Position numbers and translations under genes: made by a program | DNA from: an uncultured Aquimonas sp. | GTDB lineage: Bacteria; Pseudomonadota; Gammaproteobacteria; Xanthomonadales; Xanthomonadaceae | DNA: 22,055 nt | Reading direction: 5' to 3' | NCBI GenBank assembly: GCA_946481615.1 | Contig: CAMLOR010000033.1 | Coordinates: forward strand, 1-22,055 | Shown: in pieces, positions 4,464 to 19,065 of the stretch | Layout of the letters: each line of letters opens with the position of its first letter | Numbering within the stretch: the first letter of the stretch is position 1 | Notes under the pieces: generated by a model | Seen by the model: the letters and a program-made list of their open reading frames with translations, nothing else | Databases searched by the model: none | What the model was told of the DNA's origin: nothing

Positions 4464-4507
4464 CGTGGGCTCCTGGCGCAGCCGGCACGGCTCGCGCTTC
4501 GGAAGCC

Positions 4508-4513: not shown

Positions 4514-4534
4514 GCGGCCGCCCGCGGAAGCATC

Positions 4535-4548: not shown

Positions 4549-4567
4549 GCCCGCGGCGGCAGCGCGC

Positions 4568-4581: not shown

Positions 4582-4637
4582 GGCTCGAGGGTGCGCGCGC
4601 GCAGACAGTAGTCGCGTCCGCCTCGAGAGGTTCCCGA

Positions 4638-5807
4638 ATGCACCTGCGCACCTGCTTCGCTGCTGCGCTTCTGATGGCACCGCTGGCCCCGGCGCAAGCC
4701 GAGGTCGCATGGACCGCCGCATGGCGCACGCGCCTCGAACACGTATCGCAGGACGGCGCGTTGCTCGACGCGCTCGCGCCGACATCGCGCTTGCGTGCCG
4801 GTGCCACTTGGCAGGCGCCGGGTTCGCCCTGGCGCGCCTTGCTGGAATTCGAAGGCGTCGCCGGCATCGGCTCGCGCTACAACTCCGGCGCGAACGGGGC
4901 CACACGTTACGCCACCGTCACCGACCCGACCGGCGCCGAGGTGAACCAGGCCGCGCTGTCGTGGCGCGACGAGGGCTGGGAGATCTCGGCCGGCCGCCAG
5001 CGCCTGCTGTTCGACAACCAGCGCTTCATCGGCAACTCGGGCTGGCGCCAGAACGAGCAGACCTTCGATGCGCTGCATCTGCAGTTCGCGGCGCGTGGCT
5101 TCGAGTGGCGCTACGCGTGGCTCGATCGCGTGCATCGCGTCGCGGGCGACCGCGCGCGCGACCGGCGGGCACGCGAGCATGCGCTCGATGGCCACGCACT
5201 TCACCTCGCACGCGCGACACGCTTCGGAACCGCGGCGGCGTATCTGTACCTCGTCGAGAATCGCACGCTGCCGTCCGCTTCATCGCGCAGCGCGGGGTTG
5301 CGCTGGTCGCCGGATCCGCAGGCGAGATTCGGCGTCGCAGCGGAGTTCGCGCGGCAATCCGAATGGCATTCCGCCGGCACTCCGTTCTCGCACGACTATG
5401 TTCTGCTCGAAGCGACGGCGCGTCTGCGCGGGTTGGCATGGAAGGCCGGCGTGGAACGCCTCGGCGGCGATGGCCGGCACGCCTTCCAGACGCCGCTCGC
5501 GACGCTGCATGCCTTCAACGGCTGGGCCGATGTCTTCACCACGACGCCGCTCGACGGACTCGAGGATCGCTACGCCGGCGTGGGCGGTTCCTGGAACGCG
5601 GCGAAGGCGTCGTGGAACGTCGCGTGGCACGATTTCACCGCGGCGCATGGCGAGTCGTCGCGGCGCTACGGCCGCGAATGGGATGCGTCGCTATCGAAGG
5701 CGCTTTCGCCGGCATGGAATGCGTTGGCGAAGGTCGCGTTCTACGAAGCCGATGCTTTCGGCGCGGACACCGCCAAGCTGTGGCTGCAGATCGAATGGAC
5801 GCATTGA
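4638..5807 (+). CDS. Outer-membrane porin, alginate-export (AlgE-like) family
   Basis: This 389-residue protein has a clear Sec signal peptide: a short basic start, a hydrophobic core FAAALLMAPLAP, and a likely cut after AQA at residue 21. The mature part alternates short amphipathic strands with polar turns, as in an outer-membrane beta-barrel. It contains the stretches RLRAGATWQAP, EVNQAALSWR and GRQRLLFDNQRFIGNSGWRQNEQTFD. The last of these is typical of the alginate-export domain family, which also includes many porins unrelated to alginate. A GAGAGG ribosome site precedes ATG 4638. The gene overlaps feoA by 13 bp, so translation is probably coupled. I infer a role in passage of iron or another small solute across the outer membrane in low oxygen. 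The substrate cannot be read from the sequence. Confidence 0.82.
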   Translation: MHLRTCFAAALLMAPLAPAQAEVAWTAAWRTRLEHVSQDGALLDALAPTSRLRAGATWQAPGSPWRALLEFEGVAGIGSRYNSGANGATRYATVTDPTGAEVNQAALSWRDEGWEISAGRQRLLFDNQRFIGNSGWRQNEQTFDALHLQFAARGFEWRYAWLDRVHRVAGDRARDRRAREHALDGHALHLARATRFGTAAAYLYLVENRTLPSASSRSAGLRWSPDPQARFGVAAEFARQSEWHSAGTPFSHDYVLLEATARLRGLAWKAGVERLGGDGRHAFQTPLATLHAFNGWADVFTTTPLDGLEDRYAGVGGSWNAAKASWNVAWHDFTAAHGESSRRYGREWDASLSKALSPAWNALAKVAFYEADAFGADTAKLWLQIEWTH

Positions 5808-6091
5808 TCGGCGCCGATGCGCCGTCCTGGTCGGCGCCGGCGCGTCTCGGATCGTTGCGGCCGGGCCAGCGCGCCGTGATCGTCGCGCTCGGCGGTAACG
5901 CCCGCGGCGACGAGACCTTGGCCGTGCGCATCGCGGCACTCGGGTTCAATCCCGGCCGCACGCTGCGGCTGATCGCGACTGCCGCCTTCGGCGCACCGCC
6001 GTTCGCGGTGGAGATCGGCGGCCGCGTCTTCGCACTCGGCCGGCGCGAAGCCGGACTGGTGTCGGTCGCGCCGGAGCACAGCGCGCGATGA
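5795..6091 (+). CDS. feoA: Ferrous iron transport protein A (FeoA)
   Basis: This is a 98-residue cytoplasmic SH3-like protein that assists FeoB. The FeoA pattern is visible: LGSLRPGQRAVIVAL near residues 18-32, RIAALGFNPGRTLRLI near 45-60, PFAVEIGGRVFALGRREAGLV near 68-88. It is slightly longer than typical FeoA (75-90 residues) because of an N-terminal extension. ATG 5795 lies inside the end of the porin gene. A shorter protein from a later start cannot be excluded, but no better start codon precedes the SH3 region. It overlaps feoB by ATGA at 6088-6091. It is too short to stand out on its own in a larger upstream-open frame, but the family match and the coupling on both sides support it. 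Confidence 0.9.
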   Translation: MDALIGADAPSWSAPARLGSLRPGQRAVIVALGGNARGDETLAVRIAALGFNPGRTLRLIATAAFGAPPFAVEIGGRVFALGRREAGLVSVAPEHSAR

Positions 6092-7896
6092 GCCACTGGC
6101 TGCGGTCGGTGGCGCTGGTCGGCATTCCCAACAGCGGCAAGAGTTCGTTGTTCAACCGGCTCACCGGCGCGCGCCAGAAAGTGGCGAACTACGCGGGCGT
6201 CACCGTCGATTGTCGCGAAGGCCAGGTCGCGCACGAAGGCCTTGCGTGGCGCCTGCTCGATCTGCCCGGGCTGTACGGGCTGCGCCATGCCCGCGCGGAA
6301 GAGCTGGTCACGCGCCGCGTGGTGGACGACATGCCCGCCGCGCAGGTCGATGTCGTCGCCTGCACCGTCGATGCCGCCAATCCCGAACTCGGACTGACGC
6401 TCGCGCTCGAACTGACCGACCGCGGCAAGCGCATCGTCGTGGTGCTCACGGCGGGCGACCTCGTCGACGACCGCGTGCTCGCCGCCGGCGTCGCCTCGCT
6501 CGAAAAGGCGCTCGGCGTGCCGGTGATCGCCACCTCGGCCTTCCGCAGCGACGGTGCGCGCGGCTTGCTCGAACGTCTGGCGGAACTCGCGCGCGCACCC
6601 GGCATGCCGTGGCCGCCCGCGAACCGGCGCAGCGATGCCGCGCGCCGCCATCGCGCGCGCCAGCTCGCGACCGAAGCCTTCGGCATCGCCACGCGCAGCA
6701 CGCTCGGCACGCGCCTGGATCGGCTCGCGCTGCATCCGGTGGCCGGCCCACTGATCCTGCTCGCGGTGTTGTTCCTCGTGTTCCAGGCGGTCTACCGTCT
6801 GGCCGAGTATCCGAGCGCGGCCATCGAAGCGGGCATCGCGCTGCTCGGCGGCGCGCTGCAGCATGCGCTGGGGCCAGGCGCGCTGCGCGATCTGCTGATC
6901 GACGGCGTGCTGGCCGGGGCCGGCAGCGTGCTGGTGTTCCTGCCGCCGGTGCTGATCCTGTTCGCCTTCCTGATCGTGCTGGAGGAATCGGGCTATCTGC
7001 CGCGCGCGGCATTCGTGCTCGACCCGCCGATGGCCAGGCTCGGGCTCGGCGGCCAGTCGTTCATCCCGCTGCTGTCGAGCTTCGCCTGTGCAGTGCCGGG
7101 CATCCTGGCGACGCGCACGATCGCCGATGCGCGCCATCGCCGCGCCACCATGCTGCTGGCGCCGCTGATGACGTGTTCGGCGCGTCTGCCGGTCTACACC
7201 CTGCTGATCGGCGCCTTCGTGCCGCAGCGCACGCTCGGCCCCGGCCTCGATCTGCAGGGCCTCGTGCTGTTCTCGCTTTACGCCGCCGGCGTCGGCAGCG
7301 CGGTGGCGCTCGCCGCTTGCGCGCGCCTGTGGCAACGCGCCGAACCGGCGGGTCTGTTGATGGAACTGCCGGCGTGGCGGCGCCCGGCGTGGCGCAACGT
7401 GTGGCTCGGCCTGCGCGAGCGCGCGCTGGTCTTCCTGCGGCGCGTCGGCGGCATGCTGATGGCCTTGTCGGTGGTGATGTGGGCGCTGACGCGCTTTCCC
7501 GGGCCGGACCTGCAGCACAGCATCGCCGGCCACCTGGGCCACGCGCTGCTGCCACTGCTCGCGCCGCTCGGCTTCAACTGGGAAATCAGTCTTGCGCTGG
7601 TGCCCGGCCTCGCCGCGCGCGAAGCGGCGGTCGCCGCGCTCGGCACGGTCTACGCCGCCAGCGGCGAACCGCTGCTCGCCGCCACGCTCGCGCAACGATG
7701 GTCGACGGCGACCGCGCTCGCGCTGCTGGCCTGGTACGTGTTCGCGCCGCAGTGTCTTTCCACCCTGGTGGTGCTGCGGCGCGAGGCCAATGGCTGGACG
7801 CTGCCGCTGGCGATCACGGCGGGCTATTTCGCGCTCGCCTGGCTCGCGGCCTTCGCGACCTATCGGATCGCGAATGTCTGGATCGCGGCCACATGA
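6088..7896 (+). CDS. feoB: Ferrous iron transporter FeoB
   Basis: This inner-membrane Fe(II) importer has an N-terminal G domain. The protein is 602 residues, shorter than E. coli FeoB (773). G1 is GIPNSGKSS (12-20), the G2 threonine is Thr39, and G3 is DLPG (58-61). G4 should be NxxD but reads TAGD (121-124). G5 is near ATSAF. The membrane part starts near residue 215 with LHPVAGPLILLAVLFLVF. It carries both Gate motifs, FACAVPGILATRTI and TCSARLPVYTLLIGAF, with the conserved cysteines that may form the iron path. The C-terminal helices are complete. Start and stop are both ATGA overlaps, with feoA and with the small downstream gene. Function as an iron transporter is well supported. The altered G4 raises a question about nucleotide specificity. 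Confidence 0.95.
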   Translation: MSHWLRSVALVGIPNSGKSSLFNRLTGARQKVANYAGVTVDCREGQVAHEGLAWRLLDLPGLYGLRHARAEELVTRRVVDDMPAAQVDVVACTVDAANPELGLTLALELTDRGKRIVVVLTAGDLVDDRVLAAGVASLEKALGVPVIATSAFRSDGARGLLERLAELARAPGMPWPPANRRSDAARRHRARQLATEAFGIATRSTLGTRLDRLALHPVAGPLILLAVLFLVFQAVYRLAEYPSAAIEAGIALLGGALQHALGPGALRDLLIDGVLAGAGSVLVFLPPVLILFAFLIVLEESGYLPRAAFVLDPPMARLGLGGQSFIPLLSSFACAVPGILATRTIADARHRRATMLLAPLMTCSARLPVYTLLIGAFVPQRTLGPGLDLQGLVLFSLYAAGVGSAVALAACARLWQRAEPAGLLMELPAWRRPAWRNVWLGLRERALVFLRRVGGMLMALSVVMWALTRFPGPDLQHSIAGHLGHALLPLLAPLGFNWEISLALVPGLAAREAAVAALGTVYAASGEPLLAATLAQRWSTATALALLAWYVFAPQCLSTLVVLRREANGWTLPLAITAGYFALAWLAAFATYRIANVWIAAT

Positions 7897-8165
7897 TGCA
7901 GGGCGCGCTCGCGACGCTCGCCGTGCTGGCCGCACTGATCCATCTGGCCGCGCGCCTGCGGCGCGCCGCGGGCGCCATGGCTGTGTCGTCACGCACGCCG
8001 GATTGCAGCGGTTGCCCGAAGTCGGCCGGATGCCGTGCGCAGGCGCCGATCAGTCCGTCGCCGGCACCGCTCGATCGCCGCGGCGCCGCTCCAGCCACCA
8101 GGCCAGCGCCATCACCGCCAGCCACGCCGCCAACAGCAGCGCGCGCAACGAATCGCGATCGGTGA
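7893..8165 (+). CDS. Small FeoB-associated membrane protein with CxxC-x5-C motif
   Basis: The start overlaps the feoB stop (ATGA), so it is probably translated by coupling. The 90-residue product has one hydrophobic segment at residues 5-20, then basic residues, then CSGCPKSAGC (Cys38, Cys41, Cys47). The remaining tail is rich in Pro, Ala and Arg. Short one-helix proteins with a cysteine cluster often follow feoB in bacteria and take a FeoC-like place. This one fits that type, perhaps the DUF6587 or FeoB-associated Cys-rich families, but I cannot assign it firmly. Its last 116 bp overlap the end of the convergent gene at 8050-9774. The low-complexity tail is the shadow of that gene and may be dispensable. 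Function is unknown; cysteines near the membrane suggest iron or redox sensing. Confidence 0.72.
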   Translation: MMQGALATLAVLAALIHLAARLRRAAGAMAVSSRTPDCSGCPKSAGCRAQAPISPSPAPLDRRGAAPATRPAPSPPATPPTAARATNRDR

Positions 8166-9774
8166 CTTCGGTCGGCGCTGGCGCGCTGCCATGCACCAGC
8201 GCCTGGGTGGCCGCGCGTCGTTCGTGCGCCAACAACGATGTGAAGGCGTGCGGATCGCGGACGGAGAAACGATGCTCCGTGTCGCCGACCTGCAATCGAT
8301 GCCAGCCCGCCTCGCGCGGCCAGAACGCGGCGCAGCCATTCTCGATCGACAGCGCGGCGCGTTCACCGCGCGGCGTGACGATGGCTGCGTCCTGCGCCAG
8401 ATCGCAGACGGTCGCCCGCTCGCCCGCCACCGCAGGCTCGGGCAGGCGCGGCGCAGGCTCGCCGCGTGCGCGCGCCAGCGTCGCGACGGCATCGGCCCAC
8501 AGCGTGGCGTGCCGCTCGCGTTCGCCGCGCGTGTAGAGCCGGTGCGTGTCGAGCAGGCGCCAGCTGCCGACGCGGCCGCGGCCGCGCGCCTGCCATTGCG
8601 CGAGCGGCGTGCCGTCGCTCGCGGCGAGCAGCAAGGGCTGTGCCGCGTCCACGGGTGCAGGCCAGGCATGCAGTTGCGTCCGTGGCGAGGCCGCGACGCG
8701 CACCGGCTGCGGTGCGTTCGCATTGGGCACCGCCAGGCCCCACGCCGCCCATTCGCGCGCCACGCGCTCGGGCACCGCGCCGGTGGTGCGCACCAGCAAG
8801 CCGAGTCCGGAAGCCACCGCCTCGCGCAAGGCCGGCTGCAACGCCGCGAGCTGCGGCCAGCTGCGCTCGTCGACGATCAGCAGATCGAGTTGCGCCAGTT
8901 GCGCGGCATCGAGCGTGGCTGGCCCGCGCCGCTGCGCCAACCCCGGCGCCAGCGCGATGCGCGCGTCGAGCTGCACGCCCGCATCCAGGGCCCAGCGCCG
9001 CAGGTATTTGAGTTCGGGCGACGGCGCTGCCGCCAGCAGCATCACGCGCGGCGGCAGCGCGGCCTGCGCGGACAACGGCACGGGCAATGTCTGCAGCACG
9101 TCTTCGCCGCGGCGCAGCTGCAATTCGAAATCCGCCGTTCCGGCTGCGCGCGCGATCGCGTCCAGCGCGAAGCGGCCTTCTTCGTCCGGGGCGTCCTGCG
9201 CCACCTGCGCGCCGCCCGGGTCGAGCAGCACGAGCATCGTGCCGGCGGATGCGTGCACGCGGCCGCGCAGCATCCACCAGCTGCCCGCGCGCACGGCGGC
9301 GGGCGCCTCGAGTTCGACGATCGAAGGCACGGTCGAGGCGGGCGAGGGGCGGAACTCGAGGCTGCGCGCGCCCACCGCTTCGCGATCGTGCGCGCGCAGC
9401 CCATCGCCGTGCACGATCAGATGCCGTGCGCGATGGCGGCGCAAGGCCGTGGCGAGATCGGGCACACGCTCGATGCCTTCGCCTTGCGGCGCGCCCGGCA
9501 GACCGACACGCGGCGCACGCGGCCCGGTGGCGAAGGCCGCGGCATCGGCGCCCGGCGTGAGCACGATCAGCGCCGCCGGGGCGGGTGCCTCGCGCAATGA
9601 CAGCGCCGCGAGCAGCAGCCCCGCGGCCAGCGGCTGCAGCGCGATCAAGGCCGCCCGGCGGCGCCCGCCGGAACGCGCGGCGAGCACCATCGCTGCGAGC
9701 AGCGCGAGCGCGAGCGCCGCAAGCACGACCGGATCGACACTGAAATCGCCGATGACGAACGCCGTCGCGCTCAT
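8050..9774 (-). CDS. Membrane protein, possible GATase-like, last gene of the tldD-moxR operon
   Basis: This 574-residue protein begins with ATG 9774 inside the stop of the preceding gene (ATGA overlap). Two membrane helices lie at about 15-33 and 39-56, and one at the C-terminus (about 547-563) is followed by basic residues. The long part between them is probably periplasmic. It contains a beta-sandwich-like region (about 150-230, including SWWMLRGRVHASAGTMLVLLDPGG). A region with LDLLIVDERSW and SGLGLLVRTTG follows; it resembles the core of glutamine-amidotransferase-like folds found in large membrane partners of MoxR/BatA clusters. No catalytic Cys-His-Glu triad is evident. It is probably a structural or binding subunit of the operon's complex. 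No specific function can be given. Confidence 0.82.
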   Translation of the reverse strand: MSATAFVIGDFSVDPVVLAALALALLAAMVLAARSGGRRRAALIALQPLAAGLLLAALSLREAPAPAALIVLTPGADAAAFATGPRAPRVGLPGAPQGEGIERVPDLATALRRHRARHLIVHGDGLRAHDREAVGARSLEFRPSPASTVPSIVELEAPAAVRAGSWWMLRGRVHASAGTMLVLLDPGGAQVAQDAPDEEGRFALDAIARAAGTADFELQLRRGEDVLQTLPVPLSAQAALPPRVMLLAAAPSPELKYLRRWALDAGVQLDARIALAPGLAQRRGPATLDAAQLAQLDLLIVDERSWPQLAALQPALREAVASGLGLLVRTTGAVPERVAREWAAWGLAVPNANAPQPVRVAASPRTQLHAWPAPVDAAQPLLLAASDGTPLAQWQARGRGRVGSWRLLDTHRLYTRGERERHATLWADAVATLARARGEPAPRLPEPAVAGERATVCDLAQDAAIVTPRGERAALSIENGCAAFWPREAGWHRLQVGDTEHRFSVRDPHAFTSLLAHERRAATQALVHGSAPAPTEVTDRDSLRALLLAAWLAVMALAWWLERRRGDRAVPATD

Positions 9775-11816
9775 GGCGATGCCTCCGGCGCGATCGCGTC
9801 GAGATAGTCGGCGCCGGCCTTGTCGGGCCGCGCGCGCAGCAGCGGTGCCGCCGCCGGCGGCGTCAGCACGGGCCAGAGTGCGCGGCCGAGGCGATCGCGG
9901 CATTCGCTGCAGGCCGGATCGCGGCGCAGGCCATCGAGTTGCTCGAGCACCGCGAGCGGATCGGCGAGACGATCGCGTTCCTGCGCGATCCACGCGGCGA
10001 GCGCATCGAGATCGGGCGCCGCCCCCGCCTGCAGCGCGGCATACGCCGCATCGGGCACGTGCGCTGCCTCGGCGGCGCGCGCAGGATCGTTGCGGCCAGG
10101 CAGCGAACCGCGCTCGCCGCTGAGCCGGCGCGAGGCGTCGAGTTGCGGCAGCTCCAGGCCGACGCGCGCAAGGTAGATGCGGTCGGCCTGCTGCGCGCGC
10201 TTGATGAAATCGAGCGCGCGATGTTCGTAGGGCAGCGCCGCCACCGGATCGCCCACGCGCAGTTCGCGCTCGGCCTGCCACATCTCGCGCAGCGCATCGC
10301 GCAGTAGCGCGCGTGTGCCCGGGTCGAGCAGCGTCGCGGCTTCGGGCAGGTCGTGCAGATGGCCGGCGGCGGCCATCAGTTCCTGCGCCGCGGAACCGTG
10401 CGACTCGCCCGGCCCTTCCTCGTGTTGCTCGCCTTCGGTTTCCGACTCCTCGCCGAGGAACTGGCCGTAGCGCAGCCGCAGCAGGCGCTGGTCGGCGCCG
10501 ATGGCATCCGACTTCGCCAGCGCTTCGTCGGCATCCAGGCGCGGGCGCTCGGCGATCAGCGCTTCGGTGTCGATGATGATCTGCCGCTGGCTGCGGAAAT
10601 AGGCGGGCATCGCCTTCTGCACCAGGCCTTCGACGCCCGTGCCTTCGGCCGCGGCCGGCGGCGGCCAGCGCAGGATGAAGCTCGCGCTGCGCGTCACGTT
10701 CGGCGTCGGCGTGCGGCGGTCGCTCACCTGCACCGCGGCGATCACGTCGTCGCCCTGCGCGAAACCCAGCGCGGCCAGATCGATGCGGTGTTCGTAGCGG
10801 CGTTTGCGCGCATCGCCTGCACCGCGCAGCGCGATGCGGCGTTCGCTCACGGTGACCTGTTCGCCGCTGCCCTGCGCCAGCGTCAGTTCGAGCCGCGCCT
10901 CGCCGAGGCCGTGATCGTCGCTCGCTTCGAAGGCGAGCGTCCAGCTGCGCAGGCCTGCCTCGAGCACGGTGAGCGTGCGCTCGGGCTGCAGCACGGTGAG
11001 CCGCGGCGCAAGGTCGGGAATCACTTCGAGGCGTGCGGCGGGCATCGGCGGCAGTGCGGCAGCGCCGTCGATCTCGACGCGGTACAGCGTCGATCGGTCG
11101 AACGTGCGATGCCCGCGCCACCGACCCTGCTGCGCTTCGAGTTCGAGGGTGTCGCCTTCGACGAAGCGCAGTCGCACGCGCTGCGGTTCGTGCGTGAAGC
11201 GCAGGTCCCATTCGACCCGGCCGCCGGCTTCGACGCGCGCCGACAGCGATCCGACCTCGCGCACGGGCAGGCCGGTGTAGTCCGGCGGCACGATGCGCAG
11301 GCTCGCAGCGAGCGCCTGTGCCGCTGCGGGCGAAGCGGACGATGCTGCTCGCGACGCCTGCTCGCCGGCCGCTTCCGGATGCGGCCAGAACGCTGCGATC
11401 GCCGAGGCGACGATCGCAACGGCCAGCGCCGGGACGATTCGCCGCGCCGGCCAGGGCTCGCGCAGATCGGGCGCGCGCGCCTCCAGCGATTGCCGCACGC
11501 GCGCGCGTTGCAGCCGCTGCAGTGCGCCGAGCGCGGCTTCGTCCGCGAACAGCAGGTCGGCGCTGTCCTGCAGCGCCGGATCGCGCGCATCGAGCCGGCG
11601 CACCAGCCAGGCGCGATCGATTCCCCGCCACGCGGCGACGATCCGCCAGCCGAGCAGCGCAAATGCCGGCACGGCGATGGCGAGCGCCATCGGCAGGCCC
11701 GCCGCACGATGCGCGATGAATATCGCCGCCGCCGCGAGCGGCAACCACAGCGCGATCTCGCCCAGCACGCGTCGGCGCCGCGCGGCGATGTGCAATCGGC
11801 GCAGCTTCGGCGTCAT
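9771..11816 (-). CDS. DUF4175-like membrane protein
   Basis: This 681-residue protein starts at ATG 11816 in a 4-bp overlap with the BatA-like gene and ends in a 4-bp overlap with the next gene. It has two N-terminal membrane helices (about 22-36 and 42-58), a soluble linker, and a third helix at about 128-145 (RIVPALAVAIVASAIAAFW). It then has a large extracytoplasmic part. The stretch IVPPDYTGLPVREV matches the PPxYTG motif common in DUF4175 proteins. Later regions are Ig-like strands and then charged helices, including an acidic run near 468-485 (EESETEGEQHEEGPGES). A CSEC motif occurs near the C-terminus. DUF4175-type proteins accompany moxR/DUF58/BatA genes, where they are thought to be membrane partners. 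Molecular function is unknown. Confidence 0.85.
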   Translation of the reverse strand: MTPKLRRLHIAARRRRVLGEIALWLPLAAAAIFIAHRAAGLPMALAIAVPAFALLGWRIVAAWRGIDRAWLVRRLDARDPALQDSADLLFADEAALGALQRLQRARVRQSLEARAPDLREPWPARRIVPALAVAIVASAIAAFWPHPEAAGEQASRAASSASPAAAQALAASLRIVPPDYTGLPVREVGSLSARVEAGGRVEWDLRFTHEPQRVRLRFVEGDTLELEAQQGRWRGHRTFDRSTLYRVEIDGAAALPPMPAARLEVIPDLAPRLTVLQPERTLTVLEAGLRSWTLAFEASDDHGLGEARLELTLAQGSGEQVTVSERRIALRGAGDARKRRYEHRIDLAALGFAQGDDVIAAVQVSDRRTPTPNVTRSASFILRWPPPAAAEGTGVEGLVQKAMPAYFRSQRQIIIDTEALIAERPRLDADEALAKSDAIGADQRLLRLRYGQFLGEESETEGEQHEEGPGESHGSAAQELMAAAGHLHDLPEAATLLDPGTRALLRDALREMWQAERELRVGDPVAALPYEHRALDFIKRAQQADRIYLARVGLELPQLDASRRLSGERGSLPGRNDPARAAEAAHVPDAAYAALQAGAAPDLDALAAWIAQERDRLADPLAVLEQLDGLRRDPACSECRDRLGRALWPVLTPPAAAPLLRARPDKAGADYLDAIAPEASP

Positions 11817-12853
11817 GCGGCCCCCGCGAGCCGGCGGCCGTTGGCGAGCACGCGCTCGATCAGGAACAAAGCGGCCGCAAGCCACGCCAGCCAGGGGCGC
11901 AACGGCGCAGGCGGCGGTGTCGCAGGCTCGGCCGTCGCCGTGGGCGCGACCTGCGCGGCGTAGGCGTGGCCCGGCGGCGGCGGAGCGCCGAACAGCGCGC
12001 GATGCAGCCAGCGCGGGAATTCCGCCGATTGCAGCAATGCGGCATCGAGTGTCGCGGGATCGAGATCGAGCACCTTCGGCACTGCGACGGCGCGAAGCTT
12101 CGACGCGGCTTCGTTCGCTGGCGGGGCGCCGAGGCGCAGGACCGCATCGACCTCCTGCGGCACGGGCTTGTCGAGCGGACCTTCGTCGACGCTCGCGGCG
12201 AGATCCGGCGATGTCTTCCATGCCGCGAGCGCAGCGCGCACCTGACGCAACGCCGGCGTCGTTTCTTCCGCGTACCGCAGTGCCAGTTTCCGCGCCGCAG
12301 GCGCGGCAGGCCCAGGTCCGCCGGCCTCGCCCGCGACCACCCAGCGCACCTCGCGTGTCAGTTCGATCGCCGCGGCATCGAGTCCATGCAACACCTCGGG
12401 GACACGCACTTCGAGCGTGTCGTCGCGCGCGATCCGGGCATCGAACTCGCGCAGCAGGCTCGAAAGCGACGCCCCTTCCAACGGCGGCGCAGGCATCCGC
12501 ACCGAGGGAAACCCGGGTGCCAGCCATGCCGCGTGTGCGGCAGCCTCGCCCACCGGCACGTTCGCCGCACCGGGCATCACGACGATCCAGTGCGCCGGTG
12601 CAGGCGTCAGGCCGCGCAACCACGGTTGTGCGAGCCAGGCCACGAGCACCGCCACCAGCAGCAACCGCAAGGCCAGCAGCAGCCATTCGACCAGGCGCCA
12701 GGTGCGGCGCGGCCGCGCCTGCGCCGCCACCCAGCGCAGCGCGGCGAAGCGCAGCAGCTGCACGCTGCGGCGGCGGTCCAGGTGCAGCAGCAGCGGCACC
12801 AGCAATGCGGCCAGGCCCGCGAACGCCAGCGGCAGTCCCCAGGACAGGCTCAC
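11813..12853 (-). CDS. BatA-like membrane protein (aerotolerance N-terminal domain)
   Basis: This 346-residue protein starts with MSLSWGLPLAFAGLAALLVP, followed by LLLHLDRRRS. That is the typical BatA N-terminal domain: a first helix, then an HL-x-RR loop. A second helix lies at about 55-77 and a last one near 322-337. Where a von Willebrand A (vWA) domain would place its metal-site motif DxSxS after the strand HWIVV, this protein has VVMPGAANVP (91-100). The metal site is therefore lost. Overlaps of 4 bp with the DUF58 gene upstream and the DUF4175-like gene downstream suggest tight stoichiometric translation. It is probably an inner-membrane scaffold for the MoxR/DUF58 pair; a precise role is unknown. 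Confidence 0.85.
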   Translation of the reverse strand: MSLSWGLPLAFAGLAALLVPLLLHLDRRRSVQLLRFAALRWVAAQARPRRTWRLVEWLLLALRLLLVAVLVAWLAQPWLRGLTPAPAHWIVVMPGAANVPVGEAAAHAAWLAPGFPSVRMPAPPLEGASLSSLLREFDARIARDDTLEVRVPEVLHGLDAAAIELTREVRWVVAGEAGGPGPAAPAARKLALRYAEETTPALRQVRAALAAWKTSPDLAASVDEGPLDKPVPQEVDAVLRLGAPPANEAASKLRAVAVPKVLDLDPATLDAALLQSAEFPRWLHRALFGAPPPPGHAYAAQVAPTATAEPATPPPAPLRPWLAWLAAALFLIERVLANGRRLAGAA

Positions 12854-13731
12854 GCCAGCACGGCCCGCAAGGGACGATCCAGCGGCTGATCGAGCACGTG
12901 CTCGACGTGGCGCACGCCGCCGGCGGCGAGTTCGCGCGCCAGCGCCGCGCGCGCAGCCTGGAAGCGTGCGCGGAAGTCCGCGCGCGCCAGAACGCCATCG
13001 GTCTCGAGGCGTTCGCCCGTTTCGGGATCTTCCAGCAACAAGGAGCCCTGCAACTCGAAATCGCGCTCGTCGACACTGGTCAGGACGATGCTGCGCACGT
13101 CGCGCCGCGTCGCCGAGAGCTGCAGGGCGAACTGCGCCGACACCGGATCGAAACCATCACCGATGTTCACCACGACCGCGGCCGGCTCGATGCGGCTCCA
13201 TGCGCCGCGCAAAGTGGCCAGTGCAGGCCAGGCGCCGCGGCATTCGCGCCGCATCAGCGCGAGCGCGCAGCGATCGCGATGGCGCGGCCCGCGGCCGAGC
13301 GGCACCCATTCGAGCGCGGCATCGCCGACGCAGAGCAGGCCGAAGCGGTCGCCCTGGCGCAAAGCGATCTCGATGACCGACGCCGCGAGCGCGCGCGCCG
13401 CATCGAACTTGTTGCGCGCCGGCGTGGCGAGGTCGGCCTGCGACATCGACGCCGTGCCATCGAGCACCACCCAGACCGCCAGGCCGGCTTCGCTCTGCGA
13501 TTCGCGCACGAAGTAGCGGTCGGAACGCGCGTAGAGTTTCCAGTCGATGTGGCGCGGTTCGTCGCCGTGCTCGTAGGCGCGATATTGAGAGAACTCCAGC
13601 CCCTGCCCGCGCGCGCGGCTGGCGTTGTGGCCCAGCGGCCCGGAAGGCGGCGGCATGCGCGCACTCAGCCGCAGCCGCGCCAGCAAGGGGCGCAGTGGCG
13701 GCGGGATCAGGTCGACGGCCGTGACGCTCAT
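12850..13731 (-). CDS. DUF58 domain protein (vWA-like), MoxR partner
   Basis: This 293-residue soluble protein has the DUF58 signature GQGLEFSQYRAYEHGDEPR (42-60), followed by HIDWKLYARSDRYFVRE (61-77). It then has a vWA-like domain starting VVLDGTASM (88-96). The first serine of the DxSxS metal motif is replaced by threonine (D91, T93, S95), which could still bind a divalent ion. DUF58 proteins are almost always encoded next to MoxR ATPases and are thought to act with them in protein or complex assembly. ATG 13731 lies 85 bp after the moxR stop. This is the largest gap in the operon, and it holds a hairpin. Family confidence is high, biochemical function unknown. Confidence 0.93.
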   Translation of the reverse strand: MSVTAVDLIPPPLRPLLARLRLSARMPPPSGPLGHNASRARGQGLEFSQYRAYEHGDEPRHIDWKLYARSDRYFVRESQSEAGLAVWVVLDGTASMSQADLATPARNKFDAARALAASVIEIALRQGDRFGLLCVGDAALEWVPLGRGPRHRDRCALALMRRECRGAWPALATLRGAWSRIEPAAVVVNIGDGFDPVSAQFALQLSATRRDVRSIVLTSVDERDFELQGSLLLEDPETGERLETDGVLARADFRARFQAARAALARELAAGGVRHVEHVLDQPLDRPLRAVLA

Positions 13732-13816: not shown

Positions 13817-14812
13817 TCACGCGGAGAAGGGAACGCCGGCCAGCAGCGCGTCGACCACGTCGCGCGCGGTGCGCCCGTCGGCCTCGGCGCCGAAACTCAG
13901 CAGCAGGCGATGGCGCAGCACGGGCAGCGCCAGCGCTTGCACATCGTCGCGCGTCGCCGCCAGCCGCCCGTGCAGCAGCGCGCGCGCCTTGGCGCACAGC
14001 ACCAGCGCCTGGCCCGCGCGCGGGCCGGCGCCCCAGCGCACCCAGTCGCGCACGGCGGCAAGTTCGCTGCTCTGCGGCCGCGTGGCGCGCACCAGGCGCG
14101 TGATCCACGCCATCAGATCGCCGCTCACGTGCACGTCGCGCACCAGCTGCTGCAGTTCGAGCACGCCCTGCGCGTCCATCACCGCGCCGGCCTGTGCGCC
14201 GGCGCGGCCCGTCGTGTGTTCGAGGATCGCGCGTTCCTCGGCCTCGCTCGGATAATCGACCATCACGTTGAGCAGGAAGCGGTCGAGCTGCGCTTCGGGC
14301 AGCGGATAGGTGCCGGCCTGTTCGATCGGATTCTGCGTAGCGAGCACGAAGAACGGCTTCGGCAAGACATGCGTGGTGCCGGCGTAGCTAATCGTGCCTT
14401 CCTGCATGGCCTCGAGCAGCGCCGATTGGGTTTTCGGCGGCGTGCGGTTCAACTCGTCGGCCAGCAGCAGGTGGGTGAACACCGGGCCCTGCTGGAACTT
14501 GAAGAAGCGATGCCCCGTGCCGTGTTCCTCTTCGAGGATCTCGGTGCCGAGGATGTCGCTGGGCATCAGGTCGGGCGTGAACTGTACGCGGCGGAAATCC
14601 AGATGCAGCGCGCGGCCGAGCGCGCGCACCAGCAGCGTCTTGCCCAGGCCCGGCACGCCTTCGAGCAGGCAGTGGCCGCCGGCCAGCAGCGCGACCAGCA
14701 GCTGTTCGACGACTTCCTGCTGGCCGACGATCTCGTTCGCGATGGCGGCGCGCAGCTGCGCCAGGCGCGCGAGCTTGCTTTGGAGGGCGGCTTCGTCGAG
14801 GGGCGCGTTCAT
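13817..14812 (-). CDS. MoxR-family AAA+ ATPase
   Basis: This 331-residue cytoplasmic ATPase has Walker A GVPGLGKT (about 52-59), Walker B LLLADELNR, sensor 1 ATQNP and the arginine-finger region LPEAQLDRF. The MoxR-typical VQFTPDLMPSDILGTE stretch is present. The C-terminal lid domain is complete. MoxR proteins are thought to act as chaperones for assembly or metal loading of partner proteins, often together with DUF58/vWA partners. I chose ATG 14812, one base after the stop of the DUF4159 gene. A GTG at 14821 would add three residues and overlap that gene. No strong ribosome site is visible for either, which fits translational coupling. Family assignment is certain; the client is unknown, but the tldD/pmbA-like proteins of the same operon are candidates. 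Confidence 0.95.
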   Translation of the reverse strand: MNAPLDEAALQSKLARLAQLRAAIANEIVGQQEVVEQLLVALLAGGHCLLEGVPGLGKTLLVRALGRALHLDFRRVQFTPDLMPSDILGTEILEEEHGTGHRFFKFQQGPVFTHLLLADELNRTPPKTQSALLEAMQEGTISYAGTTHVLPKPFFVLATQNPIEQAGTYPLPEAQLDRFLLNVMVDYPSEAEERAILEHTTGRAGAQAGAVMDAQGVLELQQLVRDVHVSGDLMAWITRLVRATRPQSSELAAVRDWVRWGAGPRAGQALVLCAKARALLHGRLAATRDDVQALALPVLRHRLLLSFGAEADGRTARDVVDALLAGVPFSA

Positions 14813-14813
14813 G

Positions 14814-15515
14814 TCAGGCACTCAGTGCGTACACGACGAGGTTCACCGCGAACTTGCTGTTGTCCTCGGCCAGCCAGCGCTTGTTGCGCCAGTCGTAATC
14901 CCATTCGCATCCGTAATCCTTGTTGCTGTAGAGCACGCCCAGGCGGCCGTCGATGGCGATGCCGCGCAGGTATTCGTGCACCAGGTCGTCGCCCCAGCCG
15001 TTGAGTTCCAGGCCGGTGGCGGGCGGGCCGTCGAAATCGAAGAAGGCGTGGTAGAGCGGGTGATCGTTCGGCAGCTTCTGCAAAGCGTCGCGTCCGAAGA
15101 TGCGCGCCATCTCGGCCTCGAAGGAGCGCGCGAACAGGCCGTCGATGTCGTGATTGCAATCGTCCACGAAGACGAAGCCGCCGTTGCGCACGTAGCGCTC
15201 GAAGTTGCGCCGTTCCTCCGGGTTGAACTCGACCAGCTTGTGGCCGGAGAGATAGCAGAACGGGGCTTCGAGCATGCGCGGATCGGCCAGCGGCACCACG
15301 CGCTCCTCCGGATCCACGCGCAGCTGCGTGTATTGCAGCAGCGCGTCGAGCACCGTGGTCGGCATGCGCTGGTCGACGTCCCAGTCGCCGGATTCGTACA
15401 TCAGGCGGGTGAACCAGAAGTCGTAGCGGCCGTCCTGGGCGCGCGCCGCGCGCAGCGGAAACAGCGCCGCCGCCACGGACGCGATGCCCAGCCGGAGCAG
15501 GGCACGGCGTTTCAT
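14814..15515 (-). CDS. DUF4159 protein with Tat-like signal peptide
   Basis: This 233-residue protein has an N-terminus (MKRRALLRLGIASVAAALFP, cut likely after ARA near 26) combining two arginines with a weakly hydrophobic core. It could be a twin-arginine (Tat) or a Sec signal. The mature part shows the DUF4159 pattern: WFTRLMYESGDWDVDQ, a Rossmann/GATase-like strand NGGFVFVDDCNHDID (about 111-125), LPNDHPLYHAFFDF, and a final domain with GVLYSNKDYGCEWDYDW. DUF4159 proteins commonly accompany moxR-DUF58-BatA operons, either free-standing or fused to BatA. It lies 22 bp after the pmbA-like gene and 1 bp before moxR. It is probably a periplasmic partner of the membrane subunits; activity is unknown. 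Confidence 0.88.
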   Translation of the reverse strand: MKRRALLRLGIASVAAALFPLRAARAQDGRYDFWFTRLMYESGDWDVDQRMPTTVLDALLQYTQLRVDPEERVVPLADPRMLEAPFCYLSGHKLVEFNPEERRNFERYVRNGGFVFVDDCNHDIDGLFARSFEAEMARIFGRDALQKLPNDHPLYHAFFDFDGPPATGLELNGWGDDLVHEYLRGIAIDGRLGVLYSNKDYGCEWDYDWRNKRWLAEDNSKFAVNLVVYALSA

Positions 15516-15537
15516 GGCGACGGCCTTCGCACGCGCG

Positions 15538-16872
15538 TCAGATCGCGTCGGACAGCGAGGTGAAGGTGAAGTCGCGCAGCTTCATCGCCGGCATCTTCAT
15601 CAGGATCGGCGCCTCGTCCGGCGAAATGCGCTCCGGCACGCCGAGTTCCTCGATGTTGTTCAACATGATCACGGGCGATTCGTTGAAGCGGAAGTTCTTG
15701 ATCGGATACTTCACTTCGCCGTTCTCGATGTAGAACGTGCCGTCGCGCGTCAGGCCCGTCAGCAGCATGGTCTGCGGATCCACCAGGCGGATGTACCAGG
15801 TGCGGGTGACGAGCACGCCGCGCTTGGTCGACTTGATCATTTCCTCGGTGGTGGCCGTGCCGCCTTTCATGATGAGGTTGGCCGGCTGGCCCACGGCGCG
15901 CTTGTTCTTCTCCTTGGCCCAGTAGCGCGAATACTGCAGATACTCGACGACGCCATCCTTGATGATGTCGTGCTTCTCCAGCGCCAGGCCTTCGGCATCC
16001 CACGGCACCACGGCCAGTTCCGGATCCCAGGGATCGGAATACATGTTGACGCGCTCGTCGAACACTTTCTCGCCGATGCGATTGCCACCGCCCTTCTTGG
16101 TGAGGAAGCTGCGGCCTTCGTCGGCCTGGCGCGCGTCGAAGCCGAACAGCATGAATCCGATGAGACCCGCAGCGGCCGCGGGCTCGAGGATGACCGTGTA
16201 CTTGCCGGGCTCCAGTGCCTTCGCATCCACCGAGCCTTTCGCTTTCTGCATGCCCGTGCGGATGCTCTTCTTCGCATCGAACTTCGCGATGTCGGCCACG
16301 TTGCTCGCCACCCAGCCCGAACCGCGCTCGTCGTCGGTGCGCACGGTGCAGGTGAGATCGGCCGCGGTCGTGCGCTGGTAGCCGAAGTTGCCGTTGGTGT
16401 CGGCGATGGCGGTGAAGCCCTGCGTGTCGTTGAAGAAGCCGGCGGCGACGAGCTTGTCGGCCTTGCATGGCTCGATGCAGTCGGCCGCCACCTGCGCGCG
16501 GAACTCCGGCGTGATCTTCGTGGTGGCTTCGACGAAGGTCGGCGTCGCCTTGTACTCCTGCTTGGGAACGAGCGGCATGAACTCGGGATTCTCCGGCGCC
16601 AGCTGCGCCAGTTCCTCCGCGCGCCGCACCACGCGTTCGAGCGCGGCGTCGTCGAATTCGCCGATGGTGGCGATGCCGACCTTCTTGCCGAACGACACCT
16701 GCACCGCCAGCGTGACCGTCTGCACTTCGCCGCTGGTGGAGACGCTGTTGCGCGCGAAGCGCACGTTGCCGGCGATCTGGCCCTGCAGCGTAGCCGTGGT
16801 CTGGTCGCCCTTGGAAAGCTTCAGCACCTTGTCGAGCAGTGCCTTGGCTTCGGATTCCGTGTAGAGACTCAT
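15538..16872 (-). CDS. PmbA/TldE-like subunit of a TldD/PmbA metallopeptidase pair
   Basis: This 444-residue protein is in the PmbA/TldE half of the TldD/PmbA family. In E. coli, TldD and TldE form a heterodimer that digests unfolded peptides, such as the leader of microcin B17 and the CcdA antitoxin. The sequence shows the N-terminal domain (VRFARNSVSTSGEVQT) and the C-terminal beta domain ending in RDFTFTSLSDAI. The region equivalent to the zinc helix reads LEPAAAAGLIGFM and has no HExxxH, as expected for the non-catalytic partner. No signal peptide is visible: the N-terminus MSLYTESEAKALLDKVLK is a soluble helix. GGAG precedes ATG 16872, 12 bp after the tldD-like stop. The lack of export signal contrasts with its partner. 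Confidence 0.9.
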   Translation of the reverse strand: MSLYTESEAKALLDKVLKLSKGDQTTATLQGQIAGNVRFARNSVSTSGEVQTVTLAVQVSFGKKVGIATIGEFDDAALERVVRRAEELAQLAPENPEFMPLVPKQEYKATPTFVEATTKITPEFRAQVAADCIEPCKADKLVAAGFFNDTQGFTAIADTNGNFGYQRTTAADLTCTVRTDDERGSGWVASNVADIAKFDAKKSIRTGMQKAKGSVDAKALEPGKYTVILEPAAAAGLIGFMLFGFDARQADEGRSFLTKKGGGNRIGEKVFDERVNMYSDPWDPELAVVPWDAEGLALEKHDIIKDGVVEYLQYSRYWAKEKNKRAVGQPANLIMKGGTATTEEMIKSTKRGVLVTRTWYIRLVDPQTMLLTGLTRDGTFYIENGEVKYPIKNFRFNESPVIMLNNIEELGVPERISPDEAPILMKMPAMKLRDFTFTSLSDAI

Positions 16873-16884
16873 GATTCGAACTCC

Positions 16885-18516
16885 TCAGCCCAGGTTGCGC
16901 GCAGTGTTGATGACGTTGATGCCGTTGAAGCGCGCGGTGGCGGAACCGTGCGAGACGGCCGACACCTGCGGCGGCTGACCCTTGCCGTCGAAGAAGGAGC
17001 CGCCGGTGCGGTAGTCGCGCTCGTCGCAGATCGCCACGCAGGCGTTCCAGAATTCCGGCGTGCGGATCTGGTAGGCCACGTCCTCGATCTGCTCGGTGAT
17101 CTTGCCGTCCTTGATCTCGAAGAACAGCTCGCCGCCGAACTGCGCGTTGTAGCGCTGCTGGTCGATCGAGAATGAACCGTCGCCGACGATGTAGATGCCG
17201 TCCTTGACGTCCTTGATCATCTCCTCGGGCGTGAGCTGTTCCTTGCCCGGCGCCAGCGAGATGTTGGCCATGCGCTGGAACTGCACGCTCGACCACGAAT
17301 CGGCGTAGCAGCAGCCGTGCGATTCCTTCTCGCCCAGCATGTGCACCTGGTCGCGGATGGCCTGGTAGTTGACCAGCACGCCGTCCTTGATGATGTCCCA
17401 GCGCTTGGTCTTCACGCCTTCGTCGTCGTAGCCGACGTTGCCCAGCGTGCGCGGCTGGGTCTTGTCGGCGAAGATGTTGACGATCTTGTTGCCGTACTGG
17501 AACTTCGCATCGCGCTTGTCGAGCGTGGCGAAGCTCGTGCCGGCGTAGTTCGCCTCGTAGCCCAGCACGCGATCGAGTTCGGTCGGATGGCCGACGGATT
17601 CGTGGATGGTGAGCCACAGGTGCGCCGGATCGAGCACGAGGTCGTACTTGCCCGGCTTCACCGACCTGGCCTTGAGCTTGGCCTTGGCCTGCACGGCCGC
17701 GGCCTTGGCGTCGGCGATCATGTCGTAGGACGACGAATAGCCCACCACGCCGCCCGGCATCGCGATGCGGCCTTCCGGCGCGGGTTCGAGGTATTCGTAG
17801 CCCATGCCCATCGGCGCCGAGAGCCCGCCGCGGTTGCGGAACTTGCCGCTCTTGGTGTCGACCGCCGTCACGTTCATCGGCGCCCAGATGCGGTGGATGT
17901 CCTGGTCGATGTAGCTGCCGTCGGTGCTGGCGAAGTACTTCTGCTCGTTGACCAGGAACAGCGTGGAGTTGATGTAGTTGGCGCCGGCGGCGAGCGCGGC
18001 GGCGTTGACCGCCAGCAGCAGATCCACCTTTTCCTTGATCGGCACTTCCATCGCGTTGCGCTTGATCGGCGTGGCCCAGCTCACCTCGCCCACGCCCTGC
18101 ACCGGCGCCAGTTCCACGGGCGTGGTCTGCAGGCGCGAATTGGCCTTGGCGATGGCCACCGCCTGCTTCGCGGCCCTGACCACGGCATCGGGGGTGAGTT
18201 CGTTGGTGGCGGCGAAGCCCCAGGTGCCCTTGGCGATGACGCGGATGCCCACGCCCGTCGTCTCGGTGTTGACGACGTTCTGCACCTTGTCTTCGCGCGT
18301 GACGACGAACTGGTTGAGATATTTGCCGATGCGCACGTCGCAATACGTGGCGCCGGCGTCCTTCGCGGCGCCCAGCGCCACGTCGGCGAGGCGCTTCTTG
18401 AGCGCGGGGTCGATGCGGTCGAGCAACGCCTCGGCGGCGATCACCCGATGGCCGAACGGGAGCAGCAGCGCGCCCACCCCCAGGCCTGTTGCCTTGACGA
18501 AATTACGCCGGTCCAT
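16885..18516 (-). CDS. TldD-like zinc metallopeptidase with twin-arginine signal peptide
   Basis: This 543-residue protein begins MDRRNFVKATGLGVGALLLP, a textbook Tat motif (DRRNFVK), with a likely cut after about residue 28-30. The catalytic site HESVGH (His305, Glu306, His310) matches the TldD HExxxH zinc site. The third ligand in E. coli TldD is a C-terminal cysteine; here Cys493 and Cys497 are candidates, followed by a longer insert before GQPPQVSAVSHGSAT. Start ATG 18516 has AGGAG 6-7 nt upstream. It is the first gene of the eight-gene operon. Known TldD proteins act in the cytoplasm, so an exported form implies a different substrate, possibly a periplasmic peptide or a self-modified maturation product. 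Family and Tat signal are well supported; the substrate is unknown. Confidence 0.93.
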   Translation of the reverse strand: MDRRNFVKATGLGVGALLLPFGHRVIAAEALLDRIDPALKKRLADVALGAAKDAGATYCDVRIGKYLNQFVVTREDKVQNVVNTETTGVGIRVIAKGTWGFAATNELTPDAVVRAAKQAVAIAKANSRLQTTPVELAPVQGVGEVSWATPIKRNAMEVPIKEKVDLLLAVNAAALAAGANYINSTLFLVNEQKYFASTDGSYIDQDIHRIWAPMNVTAVDTKSGKFRNRGGLSAPMGMGYEYLEPAPEGRIAMPGGVVGYSSSYDMIADAKAAAVQAKAKLKARSVKPGKYDLVLDPAHLWLTIHESVGHPTELDRVLGYEANYAGTSFATLDKRDAKFQYGNKIVNIFADKTQPRTLGNVGYDDEGVKTKRWDIIKDGVLVNYQAIRDQVHMLGEKESHGCCYADSWSSVQFQRMANISLAPGKEQLTPEEMIKDVKDGIYIVGDGSFSIDQQRYNAQFGGELFFEIKDGKITEQIEDVAYQIRTPEFWNACVAICDERDYRTGGSFFDGKGQPPQVSAVSHGSATARFNGINVINTARNLG

Positions 18517-18639
18517 CTGATTCTCCTGGCAGGAAGGGCAGCGGCCGATTCTCACCGCAAATCCGCGCGGGGCGTATGTGACGAAGGGCATGGCCCGGGC
18601 GACGGGCGTCGCGGTCCGGCGCACGGCTATGCTCGCTGC
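18517..18639. promoter_or_regulatory. Divergent gap between the tldD-like operon and the PIN gene
   Basis: This 123-bp gap must hold the promoter of the eight-gene minus-strand operon. I could not find a convincing -35/-10 pair in that direction. On the plus strand, TATGCT at 18628-18633 is a plausible -10 lying exactly 6 nt before the PIN gene start. Confidence 0.5.
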
Positions 18640-19065
18640 GTGGCCGCCACCGTCCCCCGCCTCGTGCTCGACACCAACGCCGCGCTCGATCTGCTGCTGT
18701 TCGGCGATCCGCGCTGCGCGCCGCTGCGGGCGGCGCTGGCGGCCGGCCGCGTGCAGGCCGTGACCAACGCGGCCTGCGCGGCCGAATGGCGGCGCGTGCT
18801 GCGCTATCCGGCGCTGGGACTGGACGCGACGGCGATCGGGCGCCTGGAGCGCGACCACGCGACGCTGTGCCTGGCTGTCGAGGATCGGCGTGAAGGCGCG
18901 TTGCCGCGCTGCCGCGATCGCGACGACCAGAGGTTCCTGGAACTGGCGCGCGATGCCGGCGCGGTGCTGCTGATCAGCCGCGACGCGGAATTGCTGCGGC
19001 TTTCCCGGCGTGCGCAGCGCGACGCCGGTTTCGCGATCGTGCCGCCGGAGCTATTCGGCGTCTGA
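18640..19065 (+). CDS. PIN-domain protein (putative ribonuclease, COG1569-like)
   Basis: This 141-residue protein, starting with GTG at 18640, shows the PIN-domain acidic residues in order: Asp11 in LVLDTNAALD, Glu49 in AAEWRRVL, an Asp cluster Asp93/Asp95/Asp96 before FLELARDAG, and Asp115 in LLISRDAELL. The order and spacing match the PIN family of putative toxin components (COG1569 type). These proteins cleave RNA in a Mg2+-dependent manner. I see no ribosome site before the GTG and no in-frame ATG nearby, so translation may be leaderless. No antitoxin gene flanks it: tldD lies on the other side and a secreted protein gene converges on it. It is therefore either an orphan or a housekeeping nuclease. 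Its last 15 bp overlap the convergent gene. Confidence 0.85.
   Translation: MAATVPRLVLDTNAALDLLLFGDPRCAPLRAALAAGRVQAVTNAACAAEWRRVLRYPALGLDATAIGRLERDHATLCLAVEDRREGALPRCRDRDDQRFLELARDAGAVLLISRDAELLRLSRRAQRDAGFAIVPPELFGV

Follow-up and report, generated by a model that had tools for sequence, protein, structure and literature searches.

Does the gene run on the minus strand of this DNA encode a two-subunit metallopeptidase that leaves the cytoplasm on one signal peptide? This had been proposed in an earlier note on the window (the whole stretch of DNA analyzed, 22,055 nucleotides), and the comparisons described below make it likely that an exported metallopeptidase of the TldD/TldE type is encoded here, in which PmbA hitchhikes on the Tat signal of TldD and which works with a DUF4159 protein and membrane proteins. 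The following features were annotated:

16885..18516, minus strand: tldD-type metallopeptidase subunit, predicted to be exported (543 aa; Pfam)
18430..18516, minus strand: Tat signal peptide of TldD, residues 1-29, MDRRNFVK...VIAAE (sequence motif; invariance of R3, R4 and F6)
17587..17604, minus strand: HESVGH metal-binding motif of TldD, residues 305-310 (sequence, alignment)
16987..16989, minus strand: Asp510 of TldD, at the column where E. coli TldD has its third metal ligand, Cys454 (alignments)
15538..16872, minus strand: pmbA/tldE-type partner lacking signal and metal motif (444 aa; Pfam, relatives)
14814..15515, minus strand: DUF4159 protein with an RR-type signal of its own at about residues 1-27 (Pfam)
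13817..14821, minus strand: moxR, AAA+ ATPase (PF07726, E 2.8e-62)
12850..13731, minus strand: DUF58 (vWA-like) protein (PF01882, E 6.3e-34)
11813..12853, minus strand: BatA-like membrane protein with two N-terminal TM segments (PF07584, TIGR02226; TM scan)
9771..11816, minus strand: D4175, membrane protein, weakly DUF4175-like (conserved operon position)
8050..9774, minus strand: G8, final gene of the run, encoding a membrane protein with TM segments at both termini (TM scan)

Three PmbA_TldD domains were detected in TldD as well as in PmbA, all above the Pfam gathering scores. The moxR, DUF58 and BatA-like genes are adjacent on one strand, with gaps of 85 and -4 bases, respectively. For the DUF4159 protein a glutamine-amidotransferase-like fold was predicted. 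The older label 'DUF4175-like' had to be qualified: one of the 11 aligned D4175 members matched DUF4175, but the window protein had no Pfam match of its own. The window G8 protein had no Pfam match either, and G8 proteins gave weak, scattered matches at most.

The N-terminus of TldD reads MDRRNFVKATGLGVGALLLPFGHRVIAAEA, with a twin arginine, an uncharged hydrophobic run and Ala-Ala before residue 29. Tat signals were called by explicit motif and hydrophobicity rules, not by a trained predictor, and by these rules TldD has the features of a Tat substrate: twin-arginine motif, uncharged h-region and a signal-peptidase or lipobox site. In an alignment of 21 TldDs R3, R4 and F6 were invariant while the remaining signal residues varied, which places the signal far beyond chance. 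The invariance is also specific, since an RR was found in the neighboring DUF4159 protein in only 20 of 70 loci. The signal was located at the start of 118 of the 120 best TldD homologues, and in the other two (P0053 and P0072) it followed an N-terminally extended predicted start. Across 80 related loci 128 of 129 TldD frames carried the RR signal (126 by rule, two after another choice of start), the last frame being a fragment. In 33 longer stretches, mostly from already sampled genomes, the signal was present in 53 of 54 TldDs and in none of 41 PmbAs; the single signal-less TldD belonged to a Cys-type pair of genome G445. A Tat lipobox, assigned by rule, replaced the cleavable signal in 11 TldD relatives, and 17 of 186 Tat-type TldDs failed the signal test on hydrophobicity alone. 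In the structural model of TldD residues 1-21 had pLDDT values below 50, and the best PDB match began at residue 34. At the level of sequence these results bear out the twin-arginine signal claimed in the earlier note, and the contrary case named there, related operons with a mostly signal-less TldD, was not seen in the loci examined. No paper in the searched literature combined TldD, twin-arginine and signal peptide. The co-occurrence of TatC was considered as a test of export in Bacteroidota and dropped, because TatC was found in 246 of 247 sampled genomes, including all 22 carriers, and thus offered no contrast.

If the N-terminal segment of TldD were not a working signal, both subunits would remain in the cytoplasm, where the roles named for E. 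coli TldD/E in PMC5810440, microcin B17 maturation (leader removal) and CcdA turnover, are performed. Taking into account that the RR is invariant while the rest of the segment varies freely, that lipobox variants occur at the same position and that the signal-less sister clade has no such segment, we consider this highly improbable.

The N-terminus of PmbA reads MSLYTESEAKALLDK and contains no signal; the window PmbA also has no HE pair anywhere. The metal motif was missing from all 124 PmbAs, so that in the window and its relatives HExxxH occurs in TldD and is lacking in PmbA, as is typical of the TldD/TldE family. A convincing signal was detected in none of 123 distinct PmbA partners, the 124th distinct PmbA belonging to the signal-less G445 pair. 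Eight of the 124 were flagged by the first signal rule and were rejected: seven were due to a hydrophobic stretch of the first domain, at around residue 25, and the eighth to a fortuitous RR. On hydrophobicity alone, under a rule controlled on a second exported pair with two signals (see below), eight of 124 PmbAs passed, in each case at residue 25, within the first domain, whereas all 40 scored subunits of the control pair passed. The comparison across loci thus agrees with the proposal that the partner has no signal and that TldD alone carries one, the arrangement characteristic of Tat hitchhikers.

The zinc site had been described as intact, which is true of the HExxxH motif, but the third ligand differs: in the alignments Asp510 occupies the column of the E. 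coli TldD ligand Cys454 (SFFD-GK here versus CGK in signal-less TldDs). Among 430 aligned TldDs, 274 combined Tat with Asp, 137 combined Cys with the absence of Tat, none combined Tat with Cys, and three were gapped; the other 16 had Asp and failed the Tat rule, nine of them lacking the N-terminus and seven having xRRxF with a weak hydrophobic run. The Tat/Asp TldDs formed one clade (SH-aLRT 96), whose sister was the signal-less Cys clade. Because the tree requires only one change, the association of Tat with Asp counts as one event, not many, and we treat Asp at the third-ligand column as a clade marker. The idea that Asp replaced Cys as an adaptation to the oxidizing periplasm was abandoned as a general rule, since the second exported TldD-like pair retains Cys (CGAES) and since, in the alignment of 21, Tat-type TldDs retain other invariant cysteines (C402, C403, C493 and C497). 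A downstream His (SAVSHG) was rejected as a substitute for Cys454, because the Cys-type sisters have this His together with Cys at the Asp column.

The predicted structure of TldD has the fold of the TldD/TldE family, whereas Asp510 departs from the Cys that serves as third ligand in the canonical E. coli-like subfamily, and the window protein scored 74.6 with the NCBIfam TldD equivalog PRK10735, whose cut-off is 513. As Asp seems able to replace the Cys ligand in some cases, according to PMC5810440, Asp510 bars the protein from the canonical subfamily but not from the family. The Asp in place of Cys, together with the membrane proteins encoded nearby, could also indicate that the exported pair is some other amide hydrolase, e.g. 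an N-deacetylase with envelope sugars or peptidoglycan as its substrate; we find this unlikely in view of the predicted fold and the metal motif, which match the E. coli peptidase.

Whether PmbA accompanies TldD was approached by comparison. TldD could be exported alone, either as a homodimer or with the two TldD copies dimerizing, and PmbA would then stay behind in the cytoplasm and have a function of its own there. This would be consistent with a PmbA that has no signal, and many Lysobacteraceae have two tldD genes per one pmbA, which makes TldD-TldD dimers possible; in one Bacteroidota genome (G133) pmbA and tldD lie on different contigs, and PMC5810440 cites an active TldD homodimer from Sulfolobus. 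However, pmbA adjoins tldD even in loci that showed no further gene of the operon (L067, L161, L164 and L179-L181), PmbA is devoid of the metal motif, and no signal-less TldD that PmbA could join was found in any of the 22 Bacteroidota carriers. In another exported TldD-like pair, distinct from this one and mostly Sec-type, signals were found on 21 of 21 catalytic and 19 of 20 other subunits (RRx[FL] occurs in four of these 40 signals, which might be Tat), i.e. there the non-catalytic subunit bears a signal as well. The lack of a signal-less TldD, the two-signal design of the second pair and the Tat lipobox of 11 relatives favor export as a pair, and the observation that E. coli TldD/E is active only when both subunits are present (PMC5810440) was counted on the same side. 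Joint export, as envisaged in the earlier note, is thus favored by comparison and stays at the level of inference, and solitary export of TldD appears improbable.

The order tldD-pmbA-DUF4159-moxR-DUF58-batA-D4175-G8 was found from Lysobacterales to Bacteroidota, in agreement with the conservation expected for its first five genes. The full set of eight was present in 50 of 80 loci, and 28 of the remaining 30 end at the edge of the available stretch. All 13 Pseudomonadota carriers and 15 of the 22 Bacteroidota carriers had the module genes linked; the other seven had no MoxR-side gene in the stretch examined, some of these stretches being short or at a contig end, and therefore the MoxR-side module may not be obligatory for tldD-pmbA. 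On account of these seven the pair could be viewed as a secretory paralogue of general proteolysis that stands beside the module by chance, an explanation which the frequency of the complete set and the linkage in both phyla render distinctly improbable. The suggestion that MoxR helps in folding or zinc loading found no support beyond gene order.

Conservation between the window and Bacteroidota was 61-67% for DUF4159 and 58-66% for TldD, which we take as equal. Of 70 loci, 59 encode a DUF4159 protein with a signal of its own and 11 (eight Oxalobacteraceae, two Nevskia and one gammaproteobacterial locus) one without, and by eye 11 of 13 Bacteroidota copies had none. These signal-less copies were weighed against the favored explanation; they are also what would be expected if DUF4159 could ride along, and PaoABC, a redox enzyme, would by analogy provide a precedent for a three-part Tat cargo (PMC4273604). 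That TldD, PmbA and DUF4159 form one such cargo on the TldD signal, assembled in the cytoplasm with MoxR/DUF58 as chaperone, is nevertheless a tentative idea and on balance rather doubtful; if true, it would amount to a peptidase machine dedicated to the envelope, with no described counterpart in the searched literature.

In the favored explanation, export of the TldD-PmbA pair, TldD would fold in the cytoplasm, bind its metal through His305, His310 and Asp510, and pair with the signal-less PmbA before export. The folded pair would cross the inner membrane via Tat on the TldD signal alone and serve as a narrow-channel peptidase for unfolded peptides in the periplasm, in concert with the DUF4159 protein and with three membrane proteins, BatA, D4175 and G8. 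The assembly of this membrane set would probably be the task of MoxR and DUF58. Of the interpretation given in the earlier note, the Tat-type TldD, the one-signal design and the gene order were retained, co-export was kept as conditional, and the help of MoxR had no backing other than gene order.

TldD/E is widespread and its general role is described as elusive in PMC5810440. The locus encodes a widespread relative of this two-part peptidase, so far known from inside cells, with the predicted export signal on the catalytic half only; the two halves are probably assembled in the cytoplasm and exported jointly. A conserved branch that is exported on a single signal, shared by two subunits, would extend the known Tat hitchhikers to a peptidase-type pair, and an uncharacterized eight-gene operon of Lysobacterales, Stenotrophomonas, Massilia and Bacteroidota would gain a testable envelope function. 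The existence of one-signal (Tat) and two-signal versions within one superfamily makes the hitchhiker idea directly testable.

Among known systems, Rhizobium leguminosarum has a MoxR-linked operon, RL3499-RL3502, for which effects on cell shape and on the integrity of the envelope are reported (cited in PMC3893208); the likeness is one of description, not gene by gene. In Stenotrophomonas maltophilia an uncharacterized operon of nine locus tags, NIPOLPBK_01784-01792, was reported as down-regulated in biofilm (PMC7688217); two TldD proteins are listed for it together with a MoxR-like ATPase, one putative protease, one membrane protein and three hypotheticals, and the passages on it mention neither export nor pairing. 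The S. maltophilia loci L019-L021 contain nine genes of the tldD-pmbA operon, and NIPOLPBK_01784-01792 would appear to be this same operon. E. coli TldD/TldE (PmbA; PDB 5NJ5 series) shares the three-domain fold, HExxxH followed by a Glu/Asp pair, a third ligand followed by Gly-Lys, and a partner lacking the metal motif; unlike the protein described here, E. coli TldD has no signal peptide, and its third ligand is Cys454 instead of Asp. In E. coli K-12 tldD is flanked by aaeR and yhdP, and the 22 kb examined there contain no moxR. HybOC of E. coli is a redox enzyme. In HybOC and in PaoABC of E. coli, as in the pair studied here, the Tat signal is on one subunit and absent from the partner(s) (PMC4273604); their hitchhiking was demonstrated experimentally, whereas that of the peptidase-type TldD/PmbA pair is suggested by comparison.

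The operon comprises eight genes packed tightly on the minus strand of the window, of which the first six (tldD to batA-like) received Pfam assignments:

18516..16885, minus strand, tldD
16872..15538, minus strand, pmbA
15515..14814, minus strand, DUF4159 gene
14821..13817, minus strand, moxR
13731..12850, minus strand, DUF58 gene
12853..11813, minus strand, batA-like gene
11816..9771, minus strand, D4175, membrane protein gene (DUF4175 label weak)
9774..8050, minus strand, G8, membrane protein gene without family assignment

From tldD to G8 the intergenic gaps are 12, 22, -8, 85, -4, -4 and -4 bases. A PIN-domain protein (PF13470, E 1.5e-16) is encoded divergently from tldD on the plus strand (18613-19065). 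Positions 1-8000 encode a NorB nitric oxide reductase (incomplete, at the window edge), a Crp-type regulator, a HemN-like radical SAM protein, an alginate-export-like protein and FeoB, and look like an anaerobic/iron cluster.

The N-terminus of the window's TldD is MDRRNFVKATGLGVGALLLPFGHRVIAAEA. R3, R4 and F6 of this signal were invariant in 21 aligned relatives, and 118 of the 120 best TldD homologues had the RR motif and a hydrophobic run at the N-terminal start; in P0053 and P0072 the motif lies approximately 45 and 75 residues in, behind extended predicted starts. Tat signals were called by explicit motif and hydrophobicity rules, which 126 of 129 TldD frames passed in 80 loci, a set biased to close kin because it consists of the 80 top-ranked among 582 confirmed candidates. 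The remaining three were a fragment and two frames showing RR under an alternative start. These results bear out the Tat signal that the earlier note had read in TldD. In 11 distant relatives (P0194, P0203, P0204, P0208, P0217, P0222, P0224, P0228, P0230, P0233 and P0239) the Tat signal ends, by pattern match, in a lipobox (e.g. LAGC, LSAC). These variants appear to be an independent sign of TldD export: with cleavable and lipoprotein signals occupying the same place, a cytoplasmic TldD would make little sense.

The suggestion that the signal is restricted to TldD also held, as none of 124 distinct PmbAs, 123 of them paired with Tat-type TldDs and one belonging to a signal-less pair, had a convincing signal. 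HExxxH was likewise found in 0/124. In 33 longer stretches, mostly from genomes already sampled, the signal was present on 53 of 54 TldDs and on none of 41 PmbAs, the single exception among the TldDs belonging to the signal-less pair of genome G445 (locus L190), for which Methylocystis is the nearest named relative.

In the accessible part of PMC5810440, the ligands of E. coli TldD are His262, His267 and Cys454, the latter followed by Gly455 and Lys456, with Glu270/Asp272 as supporting residues, and in some TldDs Asp seemingly can stand in for Cys. Compared with the E. coli protein, the window's TldD has His305, His310, Asp510-Gly511-Lys512, Glu313 and Asp315 in the equivalent columns. In an alignment of 430 TldDs (minimum length 470 aa), a set that overlaps with the 120 homologues and the 80 loci and is not an independent sample, 274 combined a Tat-type signal with Asp in the ligand column, and two more had the signal and a gap there. 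The 137 Cys-type sequences all lacked a Tat signal by rule, and no Tat-type TldD with Cys in this column was found among the 430. Sixteen Asp-type sequences failed the rule, nine lacking the N-terminus and seven having a visible xRRxF. In a quick tree of 99 rows the Tat/Asp sequences formed one clade (SH-aLRT 96), with a signal-less Methylocystis-type clade as sister; a single joint origin of signal and Asp is the simplest reading. The signal-less pair of Methylocystis/Methylosinus relatives (L124, L190, P0241-P0360) has the Cys ligand, and no MoxR-side genes were found in the 20 kb of L190. The TldD of L012, a contig labelled Verrucomicrobia, clusters with Nevskia on the tree, and the contig is probably misbinned.

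The proposed tldD-pmbA-DUF4159-moxR-DUF58 order proved to be conserved, with 50 of the 80 loci containing all eight genes. The 30 incomplete loci include 28 that run to the end of the available stretch; of the remaining two, L080 has no batA that could be recognised, and the Chlorobiota locus L067 has the pair alone despite 8.6 kb of room. Tat-type TldDs were carried by 13 of 398 Pseudomonadota (even sample), with ten further genomes matched only by signal-less, Cys-type relatives (E <= 1e-30), and by 22 of 247 Bacteroidota. MoxR-side genes lay within the examined stretch in 13/13 Pseudomonadota and 15/22 Bacteroidota carriers; moxR itself was in 13 of these 15, the other two stretches ending short of it. 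Of the seven Bacteroidota stretches without MoxR-side genes, L161 and L179 are just 14 kb and L164 begins at a contig end. The link of MoxR to TldD/PmbA, which the earlier note had taken as possible help in folding and zinc loading, is strong as gene order but weak as mechanism. Tandem duplication of tldD beside a single pmbA is common (L014, L016, L018-L025, L033, L057 and others), and in Massilia the entire pair is doubled; the duplicated copies seen retain signal and metal site. Several contigs assigned to Sphingobium, Porphyrobacter and Brevundimonas (L031, L038, L055, L059, L060) also have the operon, whole or partial, and their TldDs are 71-74% identical to the window's copy, suggesting that the operon moved between classes.

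Other family members with which PmbA could pair were searched for in twelve genomes (eleven Pseudomonadota and one Chlorobiota). Ten contained 4-6 TldD/PmbA family members each, two of these members scoring as the canonical pair; the sequences read, from seven of the ten genomes, lacked signals, and the TldDs among them had Cys. Microbulbifer G006 had none beyond the operon's three, and in Chlorobiota G010 the pair were the sole members, no signal-less TldD being found. Only Tat-type members were present in 20 of the 22 Bacteroidota carriers (in G133 pmbA is on a different contig from tldD), and G176 and G220 had one additional pair each, both subunits of which carry signals. A signal-less TldD turned up in none of the 22; the assemblies may be incomplete, and members scoring below the family threshold would have escaped the search.

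Among 70 DUF4159 copies in the 80 loci, a signal was present in 59, containing RR in 20 and lacking it in 39, and was absent from 11; by eye, 11 of 13 Bacteroidota copies had none. Identity to the window's copy was 61-84% (20 sequences). The DUF4159 protein may be a third passenger of the exported cargo, or may be cytoplasmic in lineages with signal-less copies. No literature on DUF4159 was found.

The putatively exported TldD/E branch is real and conserved, and we found it undescribed in the literature searched. The search found no literature joining TldD, twin-arginine and signal peptide, although a paper pairing TldD with one Tat term may exist; the accessible parts of PMC7688217, PMC10885120, PMC8745565 and PMC4287336 do not describe an exported TldD. 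What looks like the same operon in S. maltophilia appears in the accessible part of PMC7688217, where every isolate showed lower expression of some of its genes in biofilm.

A second TldD-like pair (L195, L196, L227-L251; approximately 570-600 aa, HEIFGH, Cys ligand kept), which served as a two-signal control, was present in 23 of 247 Bacteroidota (E <= 1e-40) and was examined in stretches of 21 of these genomes. A hydrophobic signal was found on 21/21 catalytic subunits and 19/20 partners; for the twentieth partner (L234) the script gave no start, and the frame reads MIKLVLILFAIQLSLFAK. In one genome (L227) there is a single long reading frame, and the partner was left unscored. RRx[FL] occurred in 4 of the 40 signals, which might be Tat signals. 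Sec passes chains through unfolded, whereas Tat transports folded complexes. With Sec threading unfolded chains, each subunit needs its own signal, and one signal in the Tat pair versus two in the second pair is what joint export predicts. TldD and PmbA are most likely exported as a pair, and such hitchhiker export is documented, in the accessible part of PMC4273604, for HybOC and PaoABC.
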